A DNA stretch of 35,138 nucleotides from a virus, in the IMG/VR virus record IMGVR_UViG_3300037963_001581, positions 1 to 35,138 of that record; one strand, written 5' to 3'. The position numbers were made by a program, and so were the translations under genes. Below, piece after piece: positions 19,565 to 31,499 of this stretch. The first letter of the stretch is position 1; each line of letters begins with the position of its first letter. The notes beneath the pieces are model-generated. The model saw only the letters and a list, made by a program, of their open reading frames with translations. It ran no database searches and was not told the DNA's origin.

Positions 19565-19596
19565 TTGACACAAATGTCACAAAGTGGTAATTTGTG
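19565..19596 (+). promoter_or_regulatory. Rightward promoter with overlapping operator-like palindromes
   Basis: TTGACA (19565-19570), a 17-base spacer, and TAATTT (19588-19593) preceded by TG give an extended -10 promoter pointing at the small-gene operon. Two perfect inverted repeats sit on it: TGACA-CAAA-TGTCA (19566-19579) over the -35, and CACAAA-seven bases-TTTGTG (19578-19596) over the -10. A repressor binding either would block the promoter. Confidence 0.62.
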
Positions 19597-19619
19597 GCAT
19601 ATTGTTTTTTGAAAATTTA

Positions 19620-19731
19620 AATTGTTCGCTTCGCTTGGCTGAACGGTAACCACTCCGAGCCTTAGAGGCTACACGATGAAGAATAGAACAATTAACAACC
19701 GTCCTAAGGGGTAGCGGTTGTAAATACCTCC
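19620..19731 (+). promoter_or_regulatory. Structured 5' leader with anti-SD sequence
   Basis: Between promoter and first gene the RNA can form a long-range stem AATTGTTC (19620-19627) with GAACAATT (19686-19693), and a seven-pair hairpin ACAACCG (19695-19701) with CGGTTGT (19715-19721). Just after it comes ATACCTCC (19724-19731), complementary to the GGAGGT of the first gene's ribosome-binding site and of the later ones. It could sequester them in cis. The minus-strand frame overlapping here is not supported. Confidence 0.42.
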
Positions 19732-19742
19732 TCCATTTATGA

Positions 19743-19775
19743 GAGGCGACCCGGGACGCTTTCCCCCTTCCCGGG
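19743..19775 (+). promoter_or_regulatory. Repeated leader RNA, copy 1 (pseudoknot-type)
   Basis: Stem 2 is CCCGGGA (19750-19756) with TCCCGGG (19769-19775). Stem 1 is GAGGCG (19743-19748) with CGCTTT (19757-19762), including two G-U pairs, interleaved with stem 2 and separated by a single A. Six bases link stem 1' to stem 2'. An A/T-rich box and CGGAGGTTATAA follow, then the ATG at 19814. Confidence 0.5.
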
Positions 19776-19813
19776 AAAATTTTATTTCTCAACACTAACG
19801 GAGGTTATAAACA

Positions 19814-20002
19814 ATGCATACTATAACAACACTAGAAAACAAGAACGTAATTATTACAGTTGCTTATGATAATAATTGGCAAGAGTATGTAATAAATACT
19901 ACTAGTAAAAAAGGCATTACATCTATTGAAGGCTCTGCACATGAGACAGAGAAACAACCGGCAATAGATACCGCCAACGCTATTTTAAAACAGTTTGCAT
20001 AA
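19814..20002 (+). CDS. Small hypothetical protein, 62 aa
   Basis: First gene of the rightward operon: MHTITTLENKNVIITVAYDN..., probably beta strands then a C-terminal helix (PAIDTANAILKQFA). GGAGG lies nine bases before the ATG. Small beta-beta-alpha proteins of this style are common among phage early genes of unknown function. It is followed by two consecutive leader-type hairpins. Confidence 0.7.
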   Translation: MHTITTLENKNVIITVAYDNNWQEYVINTTSKKGITSIEGSAHETEKQPAIDTANAILKQFA

Positions 20003-20006
20003 CCAC

Positions 20007-20032
20007 ACCCAGCCGGGGGGTTTATACCCGGC
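20007..20032 (+). promoter_or_regulatory. Repeated leader RNA, copy 2a (no gene directly behind)
   Basis: Interleaved stems: ACCC (20007-20010) with GGGT (20018-20021), and GCCGGG (20012-20017) with CCCGGC (20027-20032), with the single-A linker at 20011. It is followed by AAAATTTTAA but no ribosome-binding site; copy 2b comes next. It could be a terminator-like or orphan unit whose gene was lost. Confidence 0.5.
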
Positions 20033-20062
20033 AAAATTTTAACCTAGAGATCTTTTTATAAA

Positions 20063-20087
20063 ACCCTATCACCGAGGGTAAACGGTG
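20063..20087 (+). promoter_or_regulatory. Repeated leader RNA, copy 2b (pseudoknot-type)
   Basis: ACCCT (20063-20067) pairs with AGGGT (20075-20079), and CACCG (20070-20074) pairs with CGGTG (20083-20087). The linker is AT and the last loop AAA. The box AAAATTTTTCTCAA and AATGGAGGTTAC follow before the ATG at 20126. Confidence 0.6.
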
Positions 20088-20125
20088 CAAAATTTTTCTC
20101 AACAAAAACTAATGGAGGTTACAAA

Positions 20126-20530
20126 ATGGTAACAATAAATAAGACTCTAAAATCATTTGATTTTGATAAATCAGATATAAAAGAAGTTCGCTTAAATATG
20201 ATAAAAAAAACTGATTTTGAAATAAATGATTATCGGTTCATACATGCTGATGATATAGATGATATTTTATCAGATGAGTTACAAAGTGATTTATATATCT
20301 TAGGCTCTTTTAATGCGTGGTTTATTGCTGACATTCTCGATTTAGATATTAAAGTTATCGAAATGATGCAAGAATGCAACGGATACGAAGCTCTAGGTAA
20401 AATGCTAGTAAGACACATTGATACAGTAGTAGAGCAGTACATTAAGCACGATGGCTACGGTCACCACTTCGGACATTATGACGGCAACGAACACGAGTTC
20501 GGTGACTGGTATTTCTTTAGAGTTAACTAA
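20126..20530 (+). CDS. Acidic phage protein with DGYGHHFGHYDG motif, 134 aa
   Basis: A 134-residue protein rich in Asp/Glu/Ile. It has a helical phrase LYILGSFNAWFIADILDLDI, then KMLVRHIDTVVEQYIKHDGY and a His/Gly-rich end (GHHFGHYDGNEHEFGDWYFF). I recall related proteins of unknown function in many phages, with the signature G-S-F-N-A then D-G-Y-G-H-H-F then E-F..YY-F-F-R. The His/Asp end might bind a metal. AATGGAGGTTAC is placed well for the ATG. Confidence 0.72.
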   Translation: MVTINKTLKSFDFDKSDIKEVRLNMIKKTDFEINDYRFIHADDIDDILSDELQSDLYILGSFNAWFIADILDLDIKVIEMMQECNGYEALGKMLVRHIDTVVEQYIKHDGYGHHFGHYDGNEHEFGDWYFFRVN

Positions 20531-20534
20531 CAAC

Positions 20535-20565
20535 CGACCCAACCCGGGGGCGAATAATACCGGGT
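20535..20565 (+). promoter_or_regulatory. Repeated leader RNA, copy 3
   Basis: Stem 2 is ACCCGG (20542-20547) with CCGGGT (20560-20565). Stem 1 is weaker: CCC (20538-20540) with GGG (20548-20550), extended by CG/CG across a bulged A. Single-A linker at 20541. The box AAAGATTTTTCT and CGGAGGTTATAA follow before the ATG at 20597. Confidence 0.5.
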
Positions 20566-20596
20566 AAAGATTTTTCTAATAAACGGAGGTTATAAA

Positions 20597-20842
20597 ATGA
20601 ACATTGAGGAATATTATAGAAAAGGTCACCAAGTTAAGGTAAAAATTGACGGCCAATTTAATGTATTGACTTTAAAGTTTTTACCCGGTGACGCTCTAAA
20701 TAATTCTTATGGTTATAATACTATAAATAATACGAGTTGTCACTCATTCAGCAAACCGCTTGAGTTTATAGCAAAGGGTAAATATCCAACTGTATTTAGA
20801 ACCGGTGGACATGTCTACGAAATACTAGATAGAAGAAAATAA
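20597..20842 (+). CDS. Small hypothetical protein, 81 aa
   Basis: MNIEEYYRKGHQVKVKIDGQ..., mixed charge, beta-rich, ending HVYEILDRRK. The last codons contain the recurring word TACTAGATAG (encoding ILDR). GGAGGTTATAAA precedes the ATG. Not recognised. Confidence 0.65.
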   Translation: MNIEEYYRKGHQVKVKIDGQFNVLTLKFLPGDALNNSYGYNTINNTSCHSFSKPLEFIAKGKYPTVFRTGGHVYEILDRRK

Positions 20843-20843
20843 C

Positions 20844-20869
20844 ACCCTACCCGGGAGGGTAAACCCGGG
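20844..20869 (+). promoter_or_regulatory. Repeated leader RNA, copy 4 (ideal pseudoknot geometry)
   Basis: ACCCT (20844-20848), A, CCCGGG (20850-20855), AGGGT (20856-20860), AAA, CCCGGG (20864-20869): both stems pair perfectly, with no base between stem 2 and stem 1'. The box AAGATTTTTCTTAA and AATGGAGGTAAT follow. Start codon is GTG at 20901. Confidence 0.65.
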
Positions 20870-20900
20870 AAGATTTTTCTTAACTAATGGAGGTAATACA

Positions 20901-21119
20901 GTGCAACATAATACAAACATATACGAAATATACAGAAACCTAGAACCTGAGAAGGGACACAAAAAGACCCTTGAATTTCTGCTTGATGTGGTGACTATGG
21001 GATTTAGTGCCACATGGGACAAAGACCAACGCAAAGAGCAAATTGAAATACTAGATAGGAAAATTAGAAGATGGTTTGATATGGACGGTTCTAATATGTT
21101 TATAAACCCTAAAAAATAA
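20901..21119 (+). CDS. Small hypothetical protein, 72 aa (GTG start)
   Basis: MQHNTNIYEIYRNLEPEKGH..., charged, predicted mostly helical, with a C-terminal WFDMDGSNMFINPKK. The start is GTG at 20901, seven bases after GGAGG. Contains a second copy of the recurring word (TACTAGATAGG at 21049-21059, encoding ILDR). No family recognised. Confidence 0.65.
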   Translation: MQHNTNIYEIYRNLEPEKGHKKTLEFLLDVVTMGFSATWDKDQRKEQIEILDRKIRRWFDMDGSNMFINPKK

Positions 21120-21134
21120 CAGAAGGACACGCTA

Positions 21135-21164
21135 AACCCTAGCCGGGGAGGGTTAGACCCCGGC
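21135..21164 (+). promoter_or_regulatory. Repeated leader RNA, copy 5 (ideal pseudoknot geometry)
   Basis: AACCCT (21135-21140), A, GCCGGGG (21142-21148), AGGGTT (21149-21154), AGA, CCCCGGC (21158-21164). Six and seven perfect pairs. The box AAAGAATTTTCTTAA and AATGGAGGTTAAC follow before the ATG at 21200. Confidence 0.65.
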
Positions 21165-21199
21165 AAAGAATTTTCTTAATAATAATGGAGGTTAACACA

Positions 21200-21574
21200 A
21201 TGAAAACACAAATAATAGACATGAAGCCTAGCGATGTAATGAAAAAAATCGTTAAAAATGCATTAAATATTAATGCTATGGATTTACACCTGAATCAACA
21301 TTCAAAAGTAATTCTAAAGCGTGTATTTGGTGCATTGCGTCCGTGGTGGAATAGTGCATACGATACCGACTTAGAAGGTAATGATTTTAATGTCCCTGAA
21401 GTTCAATATGATTCGAATTATTATTCTTTAGAGCAATTCAGCGACAAAGATAATCAGTTGCTTAGTGATTTTTGCGAGGTAATTGCAGATGCTCTTGGAT
21501 ATGTAAACATGGACGAACACCAAGAACAAATCGAAGACGAATGGCACAAAAGCGAAGAAAGTGATTTTTTATAA
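21200..21574 (+). CDS. Acidic hypothetical protein, 124 aa
   Basis: MKTQIIDMKPSDVMKKIVKN..., with an acidic C-terminal half ending DEWHKSEESDFL. An in-frame ATG at 21185 exists, but it is the ATG inside the ribosome-binding site ATGGAGG; the GGAGG is positioned for the ATG at 21200, which is chosen. Strong excess of Asp/Glu. Function unknown; a DNA-mimic or antidefence role is only a possibility. Confidence 0.68.
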   Translation: MKTQIIDMKPSDVMKKIVKNALNINAMDLHLNQHSKVILKRVFGALRPWWNSAYDTDLEGNDFNVPEVQYDSNYYSLEQFSDKDNQLLSDFCEVIADALGYVNMDEHQEQIEDEWHKSEESDFL

Positions 21575-21585
21575 ATTAACCAAGA

Positions 21586-21604
21586 CCCCGGATTTATTCC
21601 GGGG
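21586..21604 (+). promoter_or_regulatory. Repeated leader RNA, copy 6 (single hairpin)
   Basis: CCCCGG (21586-21591) pairs with CCGGGG (21599-21604) around a seven-base A/T loop. I see no good interleaved stem 1 here. The downstream box CAAGATTTTTCTTAA and AATGGAGGTTAAC are conserved, and the ATG is at 21637. Confidence 0.5.
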
Positions 21605-21636
21605 CAAGATTTTTCTTAACAAATGGAGGTTAACCA

Positions 21637-21858
21637 ATGCCAATCAATGATAAAATAAGTACTATTATTTTACATTCTTGGACTAATGCGAAGCGGTTCG
21701 CTTTGTTGCTTAAATCTATTGATGAAACAATAGACCAAGTAGACAACAACCCTTGTAAGTATGATTCTGAAGACCCATGGGTTTTAGATTTACAGAATTA
21801 TAGGGATAGGGTCGCAATGGTTTACGAGAGAGTAAAAGCAAGGAGTGTTTTACAATGA
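21637..21858 (+). CDS. Small hypothetical protein, 73 aa
   Basis: MPINDKISTIILHSWTNAKR..., predicted helical; no motifs. Preceded by AATGGAGGTTAAC. Its TGA overlaps the next ATG (ATGA), so the two are probably co-translated. Confidence 0.65.
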   Translation: MPINDKISTIILHSWTNAKRFALLLKSIDETIDQVDNNPCKYDSEDPWVLDLQNYRDRVAMVYERVKARSVLQ

Positions 21859-22052
21859 GTATACTAAAAAAACATCCGGAAACAGATATATATCAGCATG
21901 AGTGGGAAGCTTATTTAGACGCTCAAAACTCAGGCGAGTATAATATGTTGACTGATGCAAATGAAGTAATGGAATACTATGGAATCAAAAAGGATACCTA
22001 TTTCACTATTATTAGAAACTGGGATTCTTTATTTAAATACTTTGGAGGTTAA
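21855..22052 (+). CDS. Small acidic hypothetical protein, 65 aa
   Basis: MSILKKHPETDIYQHEWEAY..., aromatic-rich and acidic, no known motif. It has no hairpin leader and is coupled by ATGA overlap to the gene before. The phrase YGIKKDTYFTIIRNW could form a short helical unit. Unknown function. Confidence 0.62.
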   Translation: MSILKKHPETDIYQHEWEAYLDAQNSGEYNMLTDANEVMEYYGIKKDTYFTIIRNWDSLFKYFGG

Positions 22053-22055
22053 TAC

Positions 22056-22087
22056 TAGATAGGGCGGTCAGGATTATCTAACCGCCC
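22056..22087 (+). promoter_or_regulatory. Repeated leader RNA, copy 7 (variant)
   Basis: GGGCGGT (22062-22068) pairs with ACCGCCC (22081-22087). TAGATA (22056-22061), from the recurring word, can pair with TATCTA (22075-22080), interleaved but with no loop before the final strand, so the two stems are more likely alternatives than a simultaneous pseudoknot. AAAGATTTTTTT and AATGGAGGTTATAA follow; ATG at 22122. Confidence 0.5.
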
Positions 22088-22121
22088 AAAGATTTTTTTA
22101 AAATAAAATGGAGGTTATAAA

Positions 22122-22457
22122 ATGATAAAAGCACTAGAAGAGATGCAACCGTATGAATACCAACCGGTTATGTTATGGGAAGATGGAAAAGTAGAACATT
22201 CTGCAAGGGTTTGTTCTGTTTGTGATGATGGAATGTTAAGGGGTTATGTTTTATTTGATGGGCAAGAATATGCGTGTACAGATGAATGTTTATATAAGCT
22301 GAAAGACCATAAAGGTAATTTATGGACATTAGAGTCGTTTAGCGATTATTACGAAAATTATGAAGATGAAAACAGTGATTGCTATTGGACTGATTGGTAT
22401 GAATGCGATGAATACGAGTGCCATATTTGCGAAGCAATAATAGGTGAAGAAGAATAA
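22122..22457 (+). CDS. Acidic Cys-rich (zinc-binding-like) protein, 111 aa
   Basis: MIKALEEMQPYEYQPVMLWE..., with CSVC and later YECDEYECHIC, giving several Cys pairs that could hold one or two zinc ions; a further CTDEC lies in the middle. Very acidic, with many Trp/Tyr. GGAGGTTATAAA precedes the ATG. It may mimic DNA or bind a host protein; not recognised. Confidence 0.68.
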   Translation: MIKALEEMQPYEYQPVMLWEDGKVEHSARVCSVCDDGMLRGYVLFDGQEYACTDECLYKLKDHKGNLWTLESFSDYYENYEDENSDCYWTDWYECDEYECHICEAIIGEEE

Positions 22458-22459
22458 CC

Positions 22460-22485
22460 AACCTAGCCAGAAGGTTAAATCTGGC
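22460..22485 (+). promoter_or_regulatory. Repeated leader RNA, copy 8 (ideal pseudoknot geometry)
   Basis: AACCT (22460-22464), A, GCCAGA (22466-22471), AGGTT (22472-22476), AAA, TCTGGC (22480-22485). Both stems are perfect, with sequences different from copies 4 and 5. AAGATTTTTCTCAA and AAAGGAGGTTTATA follow; start codon GTG at 22521. Confidence 0.65.
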
Positions 22486-22520
22486 AAGATTTTTCTCAAT
22501 AAAACAAAAGGAGGTTTATA

Positions 22521-23150
22521 GTGACAAACTATAATACAATACTAGATAGGGCAAAAGCTCTATTAGAAGCAATAGAAAATAATACAACTACCATGTGGGA
22601 AGGTTCTTTAGAAGAAAGCCATTTAGTCGTGAAGTTTTCTGACGGAAAAGTTAATAATACTCATGAAAATGCAGTTACACTTGACATTGAACAATATGAC
22701 GGTATCTATAAATCAATTAAGGCTTTAAAAGAATCTATAAAAGAGACTGAAAAAGCTATCTATGAAGAAGATGCTAGAAATCACCCGGTTTGGAGAGAAA
22801 CACAAATCAATCCATACCGCAATAGAAGCAATTCACCATTTGAGTTTATAGATGGTGACTACGATTTGGATGCTGGACACGAAAATTGGAAGGTCTGGTG
22901 GGAGTCTGAAGAGATTTTTCTTTATGTCAGAATTGGCTGGACACACGATGATGGTAGAGATTGGAGTGATGTAGAAGTTCATAATTGGAAGTCAGAAGAA
23001 GACACAATCGAATGGCTAAGAGATAGAGAAGTAGATAAAGAAGATGAGTTAAGTGATGAGTTTATTCTTGATGAGGCTCATGGTCTGCAAGAAATAGTAT
23101 GCTTTAATGATGGTTATCTGATTAATGAAGAAAAGGTAAAAGTGGTCTAG
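22521..23150 (+). CDS. Acidic hypothetical protein, 209 aa (GTG start)
   Basis: The largest protein of the rightward cluster. The N-terminal part is a helix-rich Asp/Glu/Lys domain (DGIYKSIKALKESIKETEKA); the C-terminal half is acidic and Trp-rich (VWWESEEIFLYVRIGWTHDD). GTG start seven bases after GGAGG. The third perfect copy of TACTAGATAGGG lies near its 5' end (22540-22551), encoding TILDRA. No family recognised. Confidence 0.65.
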   Translation: MTNYNTILDRAKALLEAIENNTTTMWEGSLEESHLVVKFSDGKVNNTHENAVTLDIEQYDGIYKSIKALKESIKETEKAIYEEDARNHPVWRETQINPYRNRSNSPFEFIDGDYDLDAGHENWKVWWESEEIFLYVRIGWTHDDGRDWSDVEVHNWKSEEDTIEWLRDREVDKEDELSDEFILDEAHGLQEIVCFNDGYLINEEKVKVV

Positions 23151-23165
23151 GGATCATTTTGTAAA

Positions 23166-23209
23166 AAGGTAGTATGGTACTAGATAGGGTTCGATTCCCT
23201 TCCTACCTT
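23166..23209 (+). ncRNA. tRNA-like mini-fold (T-arm on a 7-bp acceptor-like stem)
   Basis: AAGGTAG (23166-23172) pairs with CTACCTT (23203-23209). Between them lies a canonical T-arm look-alike, AGGG-TTCGATT-CCCT (23186-23200), with the conserved TTC and A of a T loop. Only thirteen bases separate the first stem from it, so D and anticodon arms are absent. The stretch includes the recurring word TACTAGATAGGG (23178-23189). It is not a functional tRNA; it could be a deleted tRNA or a tRNA-like regulatory structure. The minus strand does not read as a tRNA. Confidence 0.45.
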
Positions 23210-23211
23210 CT

Positions 23212-23226
23212 GTCGCATGGTGCGAC
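23212..23226 (+). promoter_or_regulatory. Hairpin leader, copy 9 (short)
   Basis: GTCGCA (23212-23217) pairs with TGCGAC (23221-23226) around TGG. It is followed by TAATCTCAACAA and AATGGAGGTAAAC before the ATG at 23257, so the downstream box is only partly kept. No interleaved stem 1 was found, and the tRNA-like fold stands in front of it. Confidence 0.5.
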
Positions 23227-23256
23227 TAATCTCAACAATAAAATGGAGGTAAACAA

Positions 23257-23718
23257 ATGTTTACGATTAATGTAAAAAACGAAATGACCGATAAAACTCT
23301 TTGTAATATCTTGCAAGGAGCTTTTGATGGTGGTATTAATTATTGGTGTAAAGAAGTTGGATTATGGGGTGATAAATACGACCCAGAACTTGATGATATT
23401 GTTTTTGATAAATACAACGAATTACCAGATTATGCATTTGATAATATAATAAAAGAGAAGATGTTGTCATTAGTATTTAACTACGACAATGATGAAGATG
23501 CTGACTATGATAAATACTCTATAGGCTTTACAATGTTAGAGCCAGAAGATTCTTGCCACATAAAATATCTACAGTACGATGGTTTAATTGAAGGTTTGGA
23601 AAAATGGATGCAACAAAATAAAAGGTTTTCTGTTGGACACGATGGTGACCATTTAGATGCCGGTGATTGTGATGAAATAGTCCAGATAGCTCTATTTGGA
23701 ATGGTGATATACGGATGA
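23257..23718 (+). CDS. Acidic protein with GGINYWC motif, 153 aa
   Basis: A 153-residue, strongly acidic protein. Near residue 19 it has LQGAFDGGINYWCKEVG, a signature I recall in phage proteins of unknown function (A-x-x-G-G-I-x-Y-W). Later come DADYDKYSIGF and a Gly/Asp-rich end with HDGDHLDAGDCDEIVQIALF. GGAGGTAAAC precedes the ATG. Unknown role. Confidence 0.7.
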   Translation: MFTINVKNEMTDKTLCNILQGAFDGGINYWCKEVGLWGDKYDPELDDIVFDKYNELPDYAFDNIIKEKMLSLVFNYDNDEDADYDKYSIGFTMLEPEDSCHIKYLQYDGLIEGLEKWMQQNKRFSVGHDGDHLDAGDCDEIVQIALFGMVIYG

Positions 23719-24170: not shown

Positions 24171-24183
24171 GGAGGTAATTGAA

Positions 24184-24217
24184 AGACCCCAGATTTTACT
24201 CTGGGGTCTTTTTTTTT
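24184..24217. terminator. Strong bidirectional terminator
   Basis: AGACCCCAG (24184-24192) pairs perfectly with CTGGGGTCT (24201-24209), followed by eight or more T on the plus strand and preceded by A residues on the other. It separates the convergent plus-strand small-gene operon and minus-strand replication operon. Confidence 0.9.
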
Positions 24218-24406
24218 ACCTAGACATTGGCAGTGCGTTTACATGCATGGCATAACTAGGTGTTTATTGCAGTATCTTTATCAGTCTCTCATCTCGTAAA
24301 TAAACCTAATACTGAGATATTTTCCACTTACCATGCACCTCGTTTATGTGTTCCCGAGATGCGTTTTATTGTTAAGTATTGTTGATAGACTATCTGTTGC
24401 CAAACA
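24218..24406. other. Non-coding gap between convergent operons
   Basis: No convincing gene on either strand. ATTGCAGTA (24266-24274) is repeated in inverted form as TACTGCAAT (24408-24416), the latter inside the end of the 82-residue gene. Nothing else noted. Confidence 0.5.
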
Positions 24407-27959: not shown

Positions 27960-28433
27960 TTAAAACGGCAAATCCATATCTTTTAAGACTTGCTCTAGCT
28001 GAGTAATGGCCTTTTGTACACCAGACCTTACTTCATCAACGCTAGTACCGTTATTTGTAACGCTACTGACATTATTTGTAGATGCGTGATTATTTATAGG
28101 TTCATTTACCGCTACCGGAGGACGCATTGTATTGTTCTCTGGGGCAGACCCATTTTGATACCCATCTAAATCCTTACCATCAATATGGAAAATTCCATAT
28201 TTACTTTTCTCACTAGATTTCTTTTCAATAGTGACAGAACTTCCGCTCTGTAGGTTAAGATGTTGGATAAGATCATGTAAACCTTGTGAGGCGGTAAATG
28301 TTACCTTATCACCTACAAAGTATTGTGGCTTACCAAAGTTATCTTCTCTAACAAGATTACCGTCACCCCACGCTTGTAGCGTAACATTAACTGGTACATC
28401 CATATTAAATTTCAACTGTGTCCATTCTGACAT
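27960..28433 (-). CDS. Single-stranded DNA-binding-like protein with SSB-type tail
   Basis: 157 residues. The N-terminal 90 residues are beta-rich and fit an OB fold (VPVNVTLQAWGDGNLVRE, KVTFTASQGLHDLIQHL, SVTIEKKSSEKSKYGIFHID). A flexible Asn/Pro/Ser/Thr linker follows, then QLEQVLKDMDLPF. The last residues D-M-D-L-P-F copy the acidic SSB C-terminal tip (DDDIPF) through which SSB recruits replication and repair partners. Overlaps the nuclease gene upstream by 29 bases; AAGGAAATAGCAG precedes the ATG. Confidence 0.62.
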   Translation of the reverse strand: MSEWTQLKFNMDVPVNVTLQAWGDGNLVREDNFGKPQYFVGDKVTFTASQGLHDLIQHLNLQSGSSVTIEKKSSEKSKYGIFHIDGKDLDGYQNGSAPENNTMRPPVAVNEPINNHASTNNVSSVTNNGTSVDEVRSGVQKAITQLEQVLKDMDLPF

Positions 28434-29646: not shown

Positions 29647-29699
29647 TAGTGGTATGTGCAAATAAATAATTAGTTATGTATAAGTATGGAGGTATTTAT

Positions 29700-30383
29700 A
29701 TGACTATAGAGTTAGGTAAAATGATTAAGGTATTTAGAGAATCTAAAAATCTTAGTAGAAAAGAATTTTGTAAAATAGTTGACATTAGTACAAGTGGGTT
29801 AGCTTATTATGAAAATGGAGGCAGAGTGCCAAGCGGTAAAATACTCCATAAAATAAGAAAGGGTTTCGGATTACCCGAATCTTATTTTACAAGTGAAATA
29901 AAAAAAGAAAAAGAAGGAGAGCTAACAGTGAATCAACAAAGTATGTTAATAGAGTTACAAGCAGAAAAAATAAGATCGCTTGAAGAGCAAATTAAAAATT
30001 TAAAACCAAGCATTCATGCAAAACCAGCCTATCATTTTAAAATGGTAAGTAGATATGTAGCAGAAACTGATGAATGGTTGGATACTGATATATTTGGTGA
30101 TTTTAGTATGACTGGATATACATACGAAGAAATAGTGCCTATTATGAATGAGGAAAATGATAAAAATTCTTGGATCGACCGCTATCATCCTGATTCAAAA
30201 AAACGATTACACAGAGAAACTCTTAAAAATATTAGAACAGACTATCATTATTTAAAGTGGGATCATATGATGTGGAGAGCTAAAAATGGTAAATATGAAT
30301 GTTACAACATTGATTTATTATATATAAGAGCAGAAGAAAAAGTAACAAGTATGTTTTACTGGGTAAATGGGGATAATGATTGA
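29700..30383 (+). CDS. XRE-type repressor fused to a PAS-like domain
   Basis: 227 residues from ATG 29700, eight bases after GGAGG (29688-29692); an upstream ATG at 29676 has none. Residues 5-60 are a lambda-type HTH (LSRKEFCKIVDISTSGLAYY). A coiled coil spans about 75-102 (ELQAEKIRSLEEQIKNL). Residues 125-225 fit a PAS_3 fold: TGYTYEEIV, then SWIDRYHPDSKKRL (the H-P-D signature), then WRAKNGKYECYNIDLLY (R-x-x-N-G-K-Y) and a final strand. This predicts a dimeric repressor sensing a ligand, cofactor or partner, rather than a RecA-cleavable CI; no LexA-type peptidase is present. Overlaps the integrase gene by one base. Confidence 0.7.
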   Translation: MTIELGKMIKVFRESKNLSRKEFCKIVDISTSGLAYYENGGRVPSGKILHKIRKGFGLPESYFTSEIKKEKEGELTVNQQSMLIELQAEKIRSLEEQIKNLKPSIHAKPAYHFKMVSRYVAETDEWLDTDIFGDFSMTGYTYEEIVPIMNEENDKNSWIDRYHPDSKKRLHRETLKNIRTDYHYLKWDHMMWRAKNGKYECYNIDLLYIRAEEKVTSMFYWVNGDND

Positions 30384-31321
30384 TGTCAAGTTTATATAAA
30401 GATAAGAATACATGGCACTATAGCAAAGGTAGTGGTAAGTCAAGAATTAGAAAGTCTTTACAGACAAGTAGTAAGAAAGAAGCAAAAAGAAGACAGAAAA
30501 TTCTTGATGAGCATTATTGGAATGCTAAAGGTATAGTTACAGTTAAACTCAGTCAATTAATAAAAGAGTATAAAGAGACTGTTAAACTTCTTAAAGATTC
30601 AAGGGCAAATAAAAGGCATGTTGATAATTTCTTTGAATGGTTAAAGTATGATCCAAACGTAGATGAATTAAAACCGTCTGTATTTGATGATTATAAAAAT
30701 TATCTACTTATGGATTTAGAAAATACCTCAAAAACTGCTCGTAATAAATTAATGGTATTAAGTGCTATGATGAATTATGCCTTACATACTAAAGAGTATA
30801 CTGAGAGAAATCCATTAAAAGGTATAAGGATGCCGTCTAAAAATGCTACAAAGCCTAGAAGACCTATACCGGTTGATGATATTAAAAAAGCTATTGCTAT
30901 TACTAACAATGAGAAAGATAAAATATTCTGGAGTTTATTATTATATACCGGACTAAGAGTTTACGATGCTGGATGCCTTACTGAGAATCAAATTAAGCAA
31001 GGTGTAATACAACAAAAGAGCGGTATACCTAAACCAATACCTCTTCCACAAAAGATATTAGCTTACGGTGATAAGATATATAATATATATCCAAACTCAA
31101 ATCATATTGCTCGTAGTAGAAAAAGGTATCAAGAGATCATGGCTACATTTGGATATGAGACCGACTTTCATGCGATAAGGCATAGCGTCACTACCAAATT
31201 AGCTAAAGAAGGTATAAGTGAAAGTGATATAAAGAATATTACCGGGCATGATTCTAAAGCAGTAAAGACCTACATTCATATGGATACCGATGATTACAGT
31301 AGAATCATTGATAAAATATAG
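30383..31321 (+). CDS. int: Tyrosine integrase
   Basis: 312 residues from ATG 30383, which overlaps the repressor TGA (TGATG); a TTG three bases upstream is also possible. The N terminus (WHYSKGSGKSRIRKSLQTS) is a short arm-binding type. The core-binding domain follows. Catalytic residues are R192 (YTGLRVYDAG), K about 212 (QQKSGIPKP), H263 and R266 (HAIRH), H289 (TGHDS) and Y297 (TYIHM): a complete R-K-H-R-H-Y set. It catalyses phage integration and excision at the adjacent attP. Confidence 0.92.
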   Translation: MSSLYKDKNTWHYSKGSGKSRIRKSLQTSSKKEAKRRQKILDEHYWNAKGIVTVKLSQLIKEYKETVKLLKDSRANKRHVDNFFEWLKYDPNVDELKPSVFDDYKNYLLMDLENTSKTARNKLMVLSAMMNYALHTKEYTERNPLKGIRMPSKNATKPRRPIPVDDIKKAIAITNNEKDKIFWSLLLYTGLRVYDAGCLTENQIKQGVIQQKSGIPKPIPLPQKILAYGDKIYNIYPNSNHIARSRKRYQEIMATFGYETDFHAIRHSVTTKLAKEGISESDIKNITGHDSKAVKTYIHMDTDDYSRIIDKI

Positions 31322-31499
31322 CTGACACATTTATCAGCTGACATATAGCTGACAGATTATAGCTATAAATGCCGTAGAATGAACTACAATGACAGTCTCG
31401 TTTTCGAGGTAAAACAAGCAAAAGCCTAGTGGAGAGAGAGGGATTCGAACCCTTATTAGATTGTCTATAAATTAGTATAAGCTGACAGATAACTGACAG
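31321..31499. other. attP with tRNA-derived core and arm-type repeats
   Basis: The core at about 31427-31453 holds, in reverse sense, the 3' end of a tRNA gene: the T loop GGTTCGAATCC, then CCTCTCTCTCC and A, followed by CTAGGC. The acceptor strand fits a tRNA-Ser (GGAGAGA-type) host gene, so integration would restore it. Flanking direct repeats GCTGACA/ACTGACA lie at 31321, 31337, 31348 and at 31481, 31492, like arm sites for the integrase N domain. Only the 3' part of the tRNA is present, so no tRNA gene is annotated. Confidence 0.7.

Follow-up and report, generated by a model that had tools for sequence, protein, structure and literature searches.

Regulatory pseudoknots and start-associated repeats are both already known from phages, separately. 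In the stretch analysed here, the 35,138-base IMG/VR virus record IMGVR_UViG_3300037963_001581 (hereafter the window), a plus strand operon of small genes at 19.8-24.2 kb, presumed to be early and mostly of unassigned function, carries leader RNAs in front of its genes, most of which can fold as H-type pseudoknots. In the gene 32 pseudoknot of phage T2, loop 1 (L1) is a single base and no base lies between the two stems, and the leaders have the same geometry. The T4 gene 32 operator is also like them in layout, in that its H-type pseudoknot is followed downstream by a ribosome-binding site that is A/U-rich and has little structure (PMC535899). However, gene 32 of T4, T2 and RB69 has one such site, whereas the operon has nine leaders, with a short loop 3 (L3; mostly 3 nucleotides, nt) and in some cases without stem 1. 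Moreover, the leaders do not stand on a gene for a single-stranded DNA-binding protein (SSB) and have no UUAAA repeats as such.

The standby sites of tisB and timP likewise consist of an H-type pseudoknot and a single-stranded region 5' of the start, with proposed docking of ribosomal protein S1 and the 30S subunit (PMC7708055; PMC11228461). The tisB site, however, is single, and the ribosome-binding site that it serves is sequestered and lies about 100 nt downstream, whereas the leaders are repeated and lie about 34 nt from an open one. Start-associated sequences (SAS) and extended SAS (ESAS) of cluster K mycobacteriophages resemble the leaders as repeats found at many gene starts, before different families, with inverted repeats upstream (PMC3203893). 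Unlike the leaders, ESAS are conserved in sequence, as imperfect inverted repeats of 17 bp, and no pseudoknot has been described for them. The 13-bp SAS consensus GGGATAGGAGCCC gave three matches at three mismatches, against 2.7 expected by chance, and none at a leader. A preliminary description of this DNA had named the T4 gene 32 leader and SAS/ESAS as kin by idea only, and this is how it turned out: the layout is alike, but the leaders stand on no SSB gene and lack the SAS consensus.

The pseudoknotted acceptor arm of the tRNA-like structure of turnip yellow mosaic virus (TYMV) has the strand order S1-L1-S2-S1'-L3-S2' (S1/S1' and S2/S2' being the strands of stems 1 and 2), as in the leaders. 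Further likenesses are the total stem length of about 11-13 bp (acceptor plus T stem) and the presence of a tRNA-like leader in the same operon. Unlike the TYMV arm, the knotted leaders have neither a CCA/RCCA tail nor a T-loop, and they lie 5' of genes rather than at a genome 3' end. Rfam 15, including preQ1 and SAM-II, had no match in the window at the gathering score, and none of its pseudoknot families matched even at E up to 5, in agreement with the mismatch to preQ1 and SAM-II proposed at the outset. Neither Rfam nor the open-licence literature searched yielded a pseudoknot leader that is multicopy, covarying and interchangeable, which does not prove that none exists.

Structure and covariation of the pseudoknot leaders

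The leader-headed genes and the pseudoknot copies are as follows:

19814..23718, plus strand: leader-headed small genes, starts at 19814, 20126, 20597, 20901, 21200, 21637, 22122, 22521 and 23257
19743..19775, plus strand: leader pseudoknot 1, gene 19814, GAGGCG-A-CCCGGGA-CGCTTT-CCCCCT-TCCCGGG, weak stem 1
20007..20032, plus strand: pseudoknot 2, relic leader without a gene, ACCC-A-GCCGGG-GGGT-TTATA-CCCGGC
20063..20087, plus strand: leader pseudoknot 3, gene 20126, ACCCT-AT-CACCG-AGGGT-AAA-CGGTG
20535..20565, plus strand: leader pseudoknot 4, gene 20597, CG(A)CCC-A-ACCCGG-GGGCG-AATAATA-CCGGGT, bulged stem 1
20844..20869, plus strand: leader pseudoknot 5, gene 20901, ACCCT-A-CCCGGG-AGGGT-AAA-CCCGGG
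21135..21164, plus strand: leader pseudoknot 6, gene 21200, AACCCT-A-GCCGGGG-AGGGTT-AGA-CCCCGGC
22460..22485, plus strand: leader pseudoknot 9, gene 22521, AACCT-A-GCCAGA-AGGTT-AAA-TCTGGC

A geometric scan for S1-L1(0-3)-S2-L2(0-1)-S1'-L3(1-6)-S2', run blind over both strands of the whole window, returned seven H-type pseudoknots on the plus strand and five on the minus strand, the top minus strand match being the mirror of 21135. Six of the seven plus strand matches (19743, 20007, 20063, 20844, 21135 and 22460) are copies that the preliminary description had already claimed. The remaining claimed copy, at 20535, fell below the scan threshold because its stem 1 is bulged (CCC/GGG, with a bulged A between it and two further pairs). 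All seven copies lie at the claimed positions. Between 19701 and 22600 the scan counts six plus strand pseudoknots, whereas 200 dinucleotide shuffles averaged 0.115 and never exceeded three. At slightly tighter settings, a scan of other viral DNA (about 1.07 Mb) yielded 51 sites, only three of which precede a Shine-Dalgarno sequence. By a rough nearest-neighbour estimate, the knot is favoured over the best nested fold in each of the seven copies, by 0.9 to 7.3 kcal/mol.

The copies follow a common plan, with 3-6 bp in stem 1, a single A as L1 (AT at 20063), 5-7 bp in stem 2 and no base between S2 and S1'. L3 is mostly AAA or AGA, longer in some leaders, and is followed by S2', then AAAGATTTTTCTYAAYAA..AATGGAGGTTA and the start codon. 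At 19743, where wobble or a weaker stem 1 had been noted, stem 1 consists only of a GCG/CGC core, one A-U and two wobble pairs. This leader is nearly invariant in relatives and supplies no covariation evidence itself.

Relatives were found by terminase, capsid and leader-pattern searches, and the records with the same leader set (L003 with L004/L010/L016 and L005; L007 = L009; L008 = L011; L006/L014) make up four relatives, which together with the phage of the window form a small group of five uncultured phages. A covariance model gave 39 matches at E < 1e-3 in these five phages, hairpin-only leaders included, some of which are the copies from which the model was built and match by construction. 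The leaders at 20063, 20844, 21135 and 22460 all match it, and that at 20535 (E 4.7e-12) has a GCTCGG/CCGAGC variant in L011 and L014. Such a model had been proposed for a search of phage genomes; 12 other phage records searched whole had no match at E < 1e-3. Two pseudoknot DNA patterns searched against viral contigs likewise returned only this phage group and chance matches.

An alignment of leaders of mixed stem length by MAFFT was not faithful to the structure, and a set of ten equal-length leaders was used instead. In this set 95.5% of the cells pair, and double changes are seen in three of five stem-1 pairs and five of six stem-2 pairs. The covariation score was 0.584, against 0.202 when shuffled, with none of 500 shuffles reaching 0.584, and sliding the partner by one column lowered it to 0.137 or less. 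Furthermore, stem 1 accounts for 122 contiguous pairs in 34 distinct leaders, a set in which a few rows lack stem 1 or are no leaders, whereas permuted partners gave 56 on average and at most 87 (20,000 trials). The rows are related by descent, so that the covariation and permutation figures are not strict probabilities. Paired changes occur both among copies within one genome and between phages. The compensatory variation first noticed within one genome therefore extends to the relatives, and the covariation test across related genomes, set beforehand as a refuting check, did not overturn the claim under the shuffle and slide controls, which were used rather than R-scape. The leader is conserved in shape rather than in sequence.

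Hairpin-only and tRNA-like leaders

The initial claim of one knot per small gene holds for most genes, with exceptions. Genes 21637 and 22122 have hairpin-only leaders, gene 23257 has a tRNA-like one, and gene 21855, which lies among the leader-headed genes, has no leader of its own. Moreover, the copy at 20007 precedes another leader and not a gene. The three leaders of other type are:

21586..21604, plus strand: hairpin-only leader, gene 21637, CCCCGGA-TTTAT-TCCGGGG, leader model E 5e-9
22062..22087, plus strand: leader of gene 22122, hairpin GGGCGGT..ACCGCCC, leader model E 9.9e-7
23166..23226, plus strand: second leader type, gene 23257, tRNA-like part 23166-23209, then hairpin GTCGC-ATGGT-GCGAC at 23212-23226

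In the leaders of 21637 and 22122, stem 2 and the tail are kept, but not stem 1; a different knot is possible at 22062 in this phage, but relatives do not share the loop sequence. The tRNA-like part before 23257 consists of an acceptor stem (AAGGTAG/CTACCTT), a GG-bearing connector and a T-arm, GGTTCGATTCC, without an anticodon arm. Its acceptor covaries among phages, and the tail after its hairpin is related to that of the knotted leaders. What stays constant in the slot is thus an A/U-rich tail and a stable hairpin, whose end lies about 34 nt from the start codon; in most copies stem 1 converts this hairpin to a pseudoknot.

Leaders of this mini-tRNA type were also seen elsewhere (L014 2862 and ~4395; L007 4608, minus strand; L024 3816, 3010, 2093 and 1256, minus strand; and in L099, L104, L127, L143, L176, L178 and L193). 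Their plan is an acceptor stem, a short GG connector and a T-arm TTCRANT with no anticodon arm, usually with a hairpin and a Shine-Dalgarno sequence next. A pattern scan of viral contigs returned at least 120 such stretches. After removal of tRNAs detected by ARAGORN, 24 of 65 distinct matches have an acceptor of at least 7 bp, against 1-8 in permutations. It appears that the mini-tRNA leader is widespread among phages, as a type so far undescribed, and it is perhaps a site for RNase P.

It is because of the tRNA-like leader that mRNA processing, although we rate it rather unlikely, is a serious rival to the reading preferred below. The polycistronic RNA would be cut near the leaders, by RNase E at AAG/AUUUU or, where the leader is tRNA-like, by enzymes of tRNA processing. 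The knot or hairpin would stabilise the new 5' end, and cuts would be expected within AAGAUUUU or on the 5' flank of the tRNA-like acceptor. An element with a covarying acceptor does occupy the same slot before gene 23257, with a hairpin 2 nt further on, and similar leaders exist in other phages. AAGAUUUUU agrees with what we take to be the preference of RNase E. RNase P can cut an H-type pseudoknot in L1, and its substrates have been claimed to include gene 32 mRNA (PMC12710915). However, the pseudoknot substrate tested in that study required a 3' RCCA, where the leaders carry AAAG or CAAG, and RNase P action on pseudoknots in vivo is unproven. Moreover, the leaders keep a set distance from the start codon, but none from the upstream stop.

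Position, exchange and possible function of the leaders

In 42 leaders of the five phages, the distance from the end of the element to the start codon is 29-40 nt (median 34). The distance from the upstream stop is more variable, 1-16 nt, and reaches 60 nt after loss of a gene. The tail 3' of the knot is A/U-rich with ATTTTT and leads into GGAGGT, which contains the Shine-Dalgarno sequence GGAGG. In nearly all leaders an A-rich spacer (AAAGA, CAAGA) separates the stem from the T run, and identity as an intrinsic terminator, which calls for a T run directly after the stem, was rejected. A GC-rich hairpin followed by a T run could nevertheless act as a leaky terminator or attenuator between genes, and the leaders 20070, 20850, 21586 and 22466 do pass a loose terminator scan. 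We regard this as very improbable, given that the spacer sets them apart from the canonical terminator of the operon and that stem 1 would be left without a role:

24181..24220, plus strand: canonical intrinsic terminator at the operon end, U-tract immediately 3' of the stem

For eight of the 11 gene families common to these phages, the leader differs in at least one phage, which makes the leader independent of the gene, and many genes unique to one phage are also headed by a leader. L003 lacks gene 20597, and its leader block aligns to the leaders of both 20597 and 20901, so that the deletion runs from leader to leader. The copy at 20007 has a counterpart in L009 (ACTC-A-GCCCGG-GAGT-TATA-CCGGGC) with a double change in both stems, which heads a 57-aa gene lying between two leaders; from this comparison of sequences, 20007 is a remnant after loss of that gene. 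Read by eye and without statistics, the leader types hold roughly the same map order across the five phages while the intervening genes change. The deletion in L003, the relic and the leader swaps between orthologues would also be expected if the repeats were mainly joints for gene exchange at the DNA level, with RNA structure as a by-product. This appears improbable, in that the compensatory changes preserve pairing despite sequence change, which selection for DNA identity would not predict, and all copies keep the same orientation and their spacing to the start codon.

Together, the fixed start-codon spacing, the gene independence and the tail running into the Shine-Dalgarno sequence point to a role in translation initiation. 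By analogy with tisB, we tentatively favour the knot and U-rich stretch as a portable docking site for ribosomal protein S1 and the 30S subunit, a function that we hold to be quite possible, if short of probable. Ribosomal protein S1 has affinity for A/U-rich single strands as well as for H-type pseudoknots, and systematic evolution of ligands by exponential enrichment (SELEX) yielded a nanomolar pseudoknot; in tisB, pseudoknot and single-stranded region are both part of the standby site, which is required for binding of ribosomal protein S1 and 30S (PMC7708055). Each small early gene would then carry a cassette of three parts: a compact H-type pseudoknot (in some cases no more than the hairpin of stem 2), an unstructured segment that is A/U-rich and includes AUUUUU, and GGAGG as a strong Shine-Dalgarno sequence. 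At the upstream edge of the initiation complex, the knot and U-rich stretch would dock the 30S subunit through its ribosomal protein S1, and each cistron would recruit ribosomes independently, not via coupling to its neighbour. Being generic and repeated, the cassette may double as a recombination joint through which genes are gained, lost and exchanged. The parts of this cassette that the sequences show are the structure, the covariation, the 29-40 nt spacing and the reuse before unrelated genes.

Several points weigh against docking of ribosomal protein S1. The presence of a suitable S1 in the host is assumed, and two leaders without stem 1 and one tRNA-like leader indicate that the knot is dispensable. 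The ribosome-binding sites look open (predicted mean unpaired probability 0.46-0.69), unlike the sequestered tisB site that needs a standby site. Deletion or shuffling of the element leaves the predicted accessibility unchanged, a result that also led us to reject insulation of the ribosome-binding site from upstream folding. Finally, in another pseudoknot RNA of E. coli, translation depended on ribosomal protein S1 independently of the knot (PMC9458429).

The same layout could serve repression. In an operon-wide translational operator of the gene 32 kind, a phage RNA-binding protein (e.g. SSB) would nucleate on each pseudoknot, spread across the A/U-rich ribosome-binding site and repress all early small genes together. 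The arrangement is as in T4 and RB69, where a pseudoknot of about 28 nt precedes a stretch of over 40 nt that has little structure and contains the ribosome-binding site (PMC535899). An SSB candidate (27960-28433, minus strand) adjoins the exonuclease gene and has a conserved acidic LPF C-terminus. We nonetheless consider such an operator unlikely. The downstream genes have no SSB match, and the candidate gene is on the opposite strand, overlaps the exonuclease gene and is without such a leader. Moreover, the SSB call is unproven, with no Pfam or PDB match and an AlphaFold model too weak for a fold search (mean pLDDT, the predicted local distance difference test, 46). A common binding protein should also fix more stem bases than are seen, although L1 and L3 are A-rich. 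The candidate protein has 157 aa, with a conserved C-terminal KDM.LPF and a disordered linker.

A further sequence of possible regulatory meaning lies just upstream of the first pseudoknot:

19726..19739, plus strand: anti-Shine-Dalgarno-like ACCTCCTCCATTTA

It is identical in four phages, in which the upstream sequence is otherwise divergent. ACCTCCTCCATTTA is complementary to AATGGAGGT of the leaders, and its predicted pairing with the leader Shine-Dalgarno sequences amounts to -10.6 to -16.7 kcal/mol. On these predictions, Shine-Dalgarno sequences could be masked by it, either in cis or in trans. A type III toxin-antitoxin RNA (ToxI) was considered and rejected for the leaders, as the ten operon proteins have no ToxN-like match and there is one leader per gene, with no tandem array.

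The phage, the operon and a possible cassette array

Minus strand genes of the window code for the major head and portal proteins, the large terminase and a DnaD-like helicase loader, and other genes encode PD-(D/E)XK nucleases, an HTH_3 regulator, a tyrosine integrase, an exonuclease and an endolysin. At the DNA level, no GenBank phage is close to the window. One scan of genome contigs, bearing on the host, found only a contig in a Flavobacteriales metagenome-assembled genome (60% capsid identity) and one distant contig. Domain searches of the operon proteins gave almost no matches, and the AlphaFold model of the gene 19814 product is of moderate confidence (67). A putative promoter precedes the operon:

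19565..19593, plus strand: putative operon promoter, TTGACA, 17 nt, TAATTT

It was read from the sequence, the promoter scan having omitted it owing to its TATAAT rules, and it is conserved in three relatives, which have TTGACA/TTGACA/CTTGCA with TAATTT/TAATTT/TAGTAT. An inverted repeat, ATGTCACAAA..TTTGTGGCAT at 19574-19600, overlaps this presumed early promoter and is possibly the operator of the HTH_3 regulator (29676-30383). On the minus strand, GGGTTCGAATCCCTCTCTCTCCA at about 31420-31451 resembles a tRNA 3' end and adjoins the integrase gene (30380-31321); the likeness makes it a probable attP, and the phage is hence probably temperate. Within 2.4 kb of the operon, TACTAGATAG is present in five exact copies (20823, 21049, 22053, 22540 and 23178, all on the plus strand), which fall in both coding (ILDR) and leader sequence; L003 has three copies and L009 one.

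On a broader view, the operon may be an array of interchangeable gene cassettes headed by structured-RNA ribosome-loading modules, a pseudoknot here and a tRNA-like acceptor/T-arm plus hairpin in other phages, which would make them a general, undescribed RNA standard part for phage accessory genes. We put this forward as a conjecture, doubtful at present yet worth entertaining. If true, any small gene could be inserted and independently expressed. The presence of the knot at most genes of one operon provides built-in replicates that differ in sequence, and these replicate leaders are a natural test of whether a knot upstream of a Shine-Dalgarno sequence serves ribosome recruitment, repressor binding or mRNA protection. 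The arrangement suggests how small phage accessory genes could be swapped without rebuilding their expression signals.

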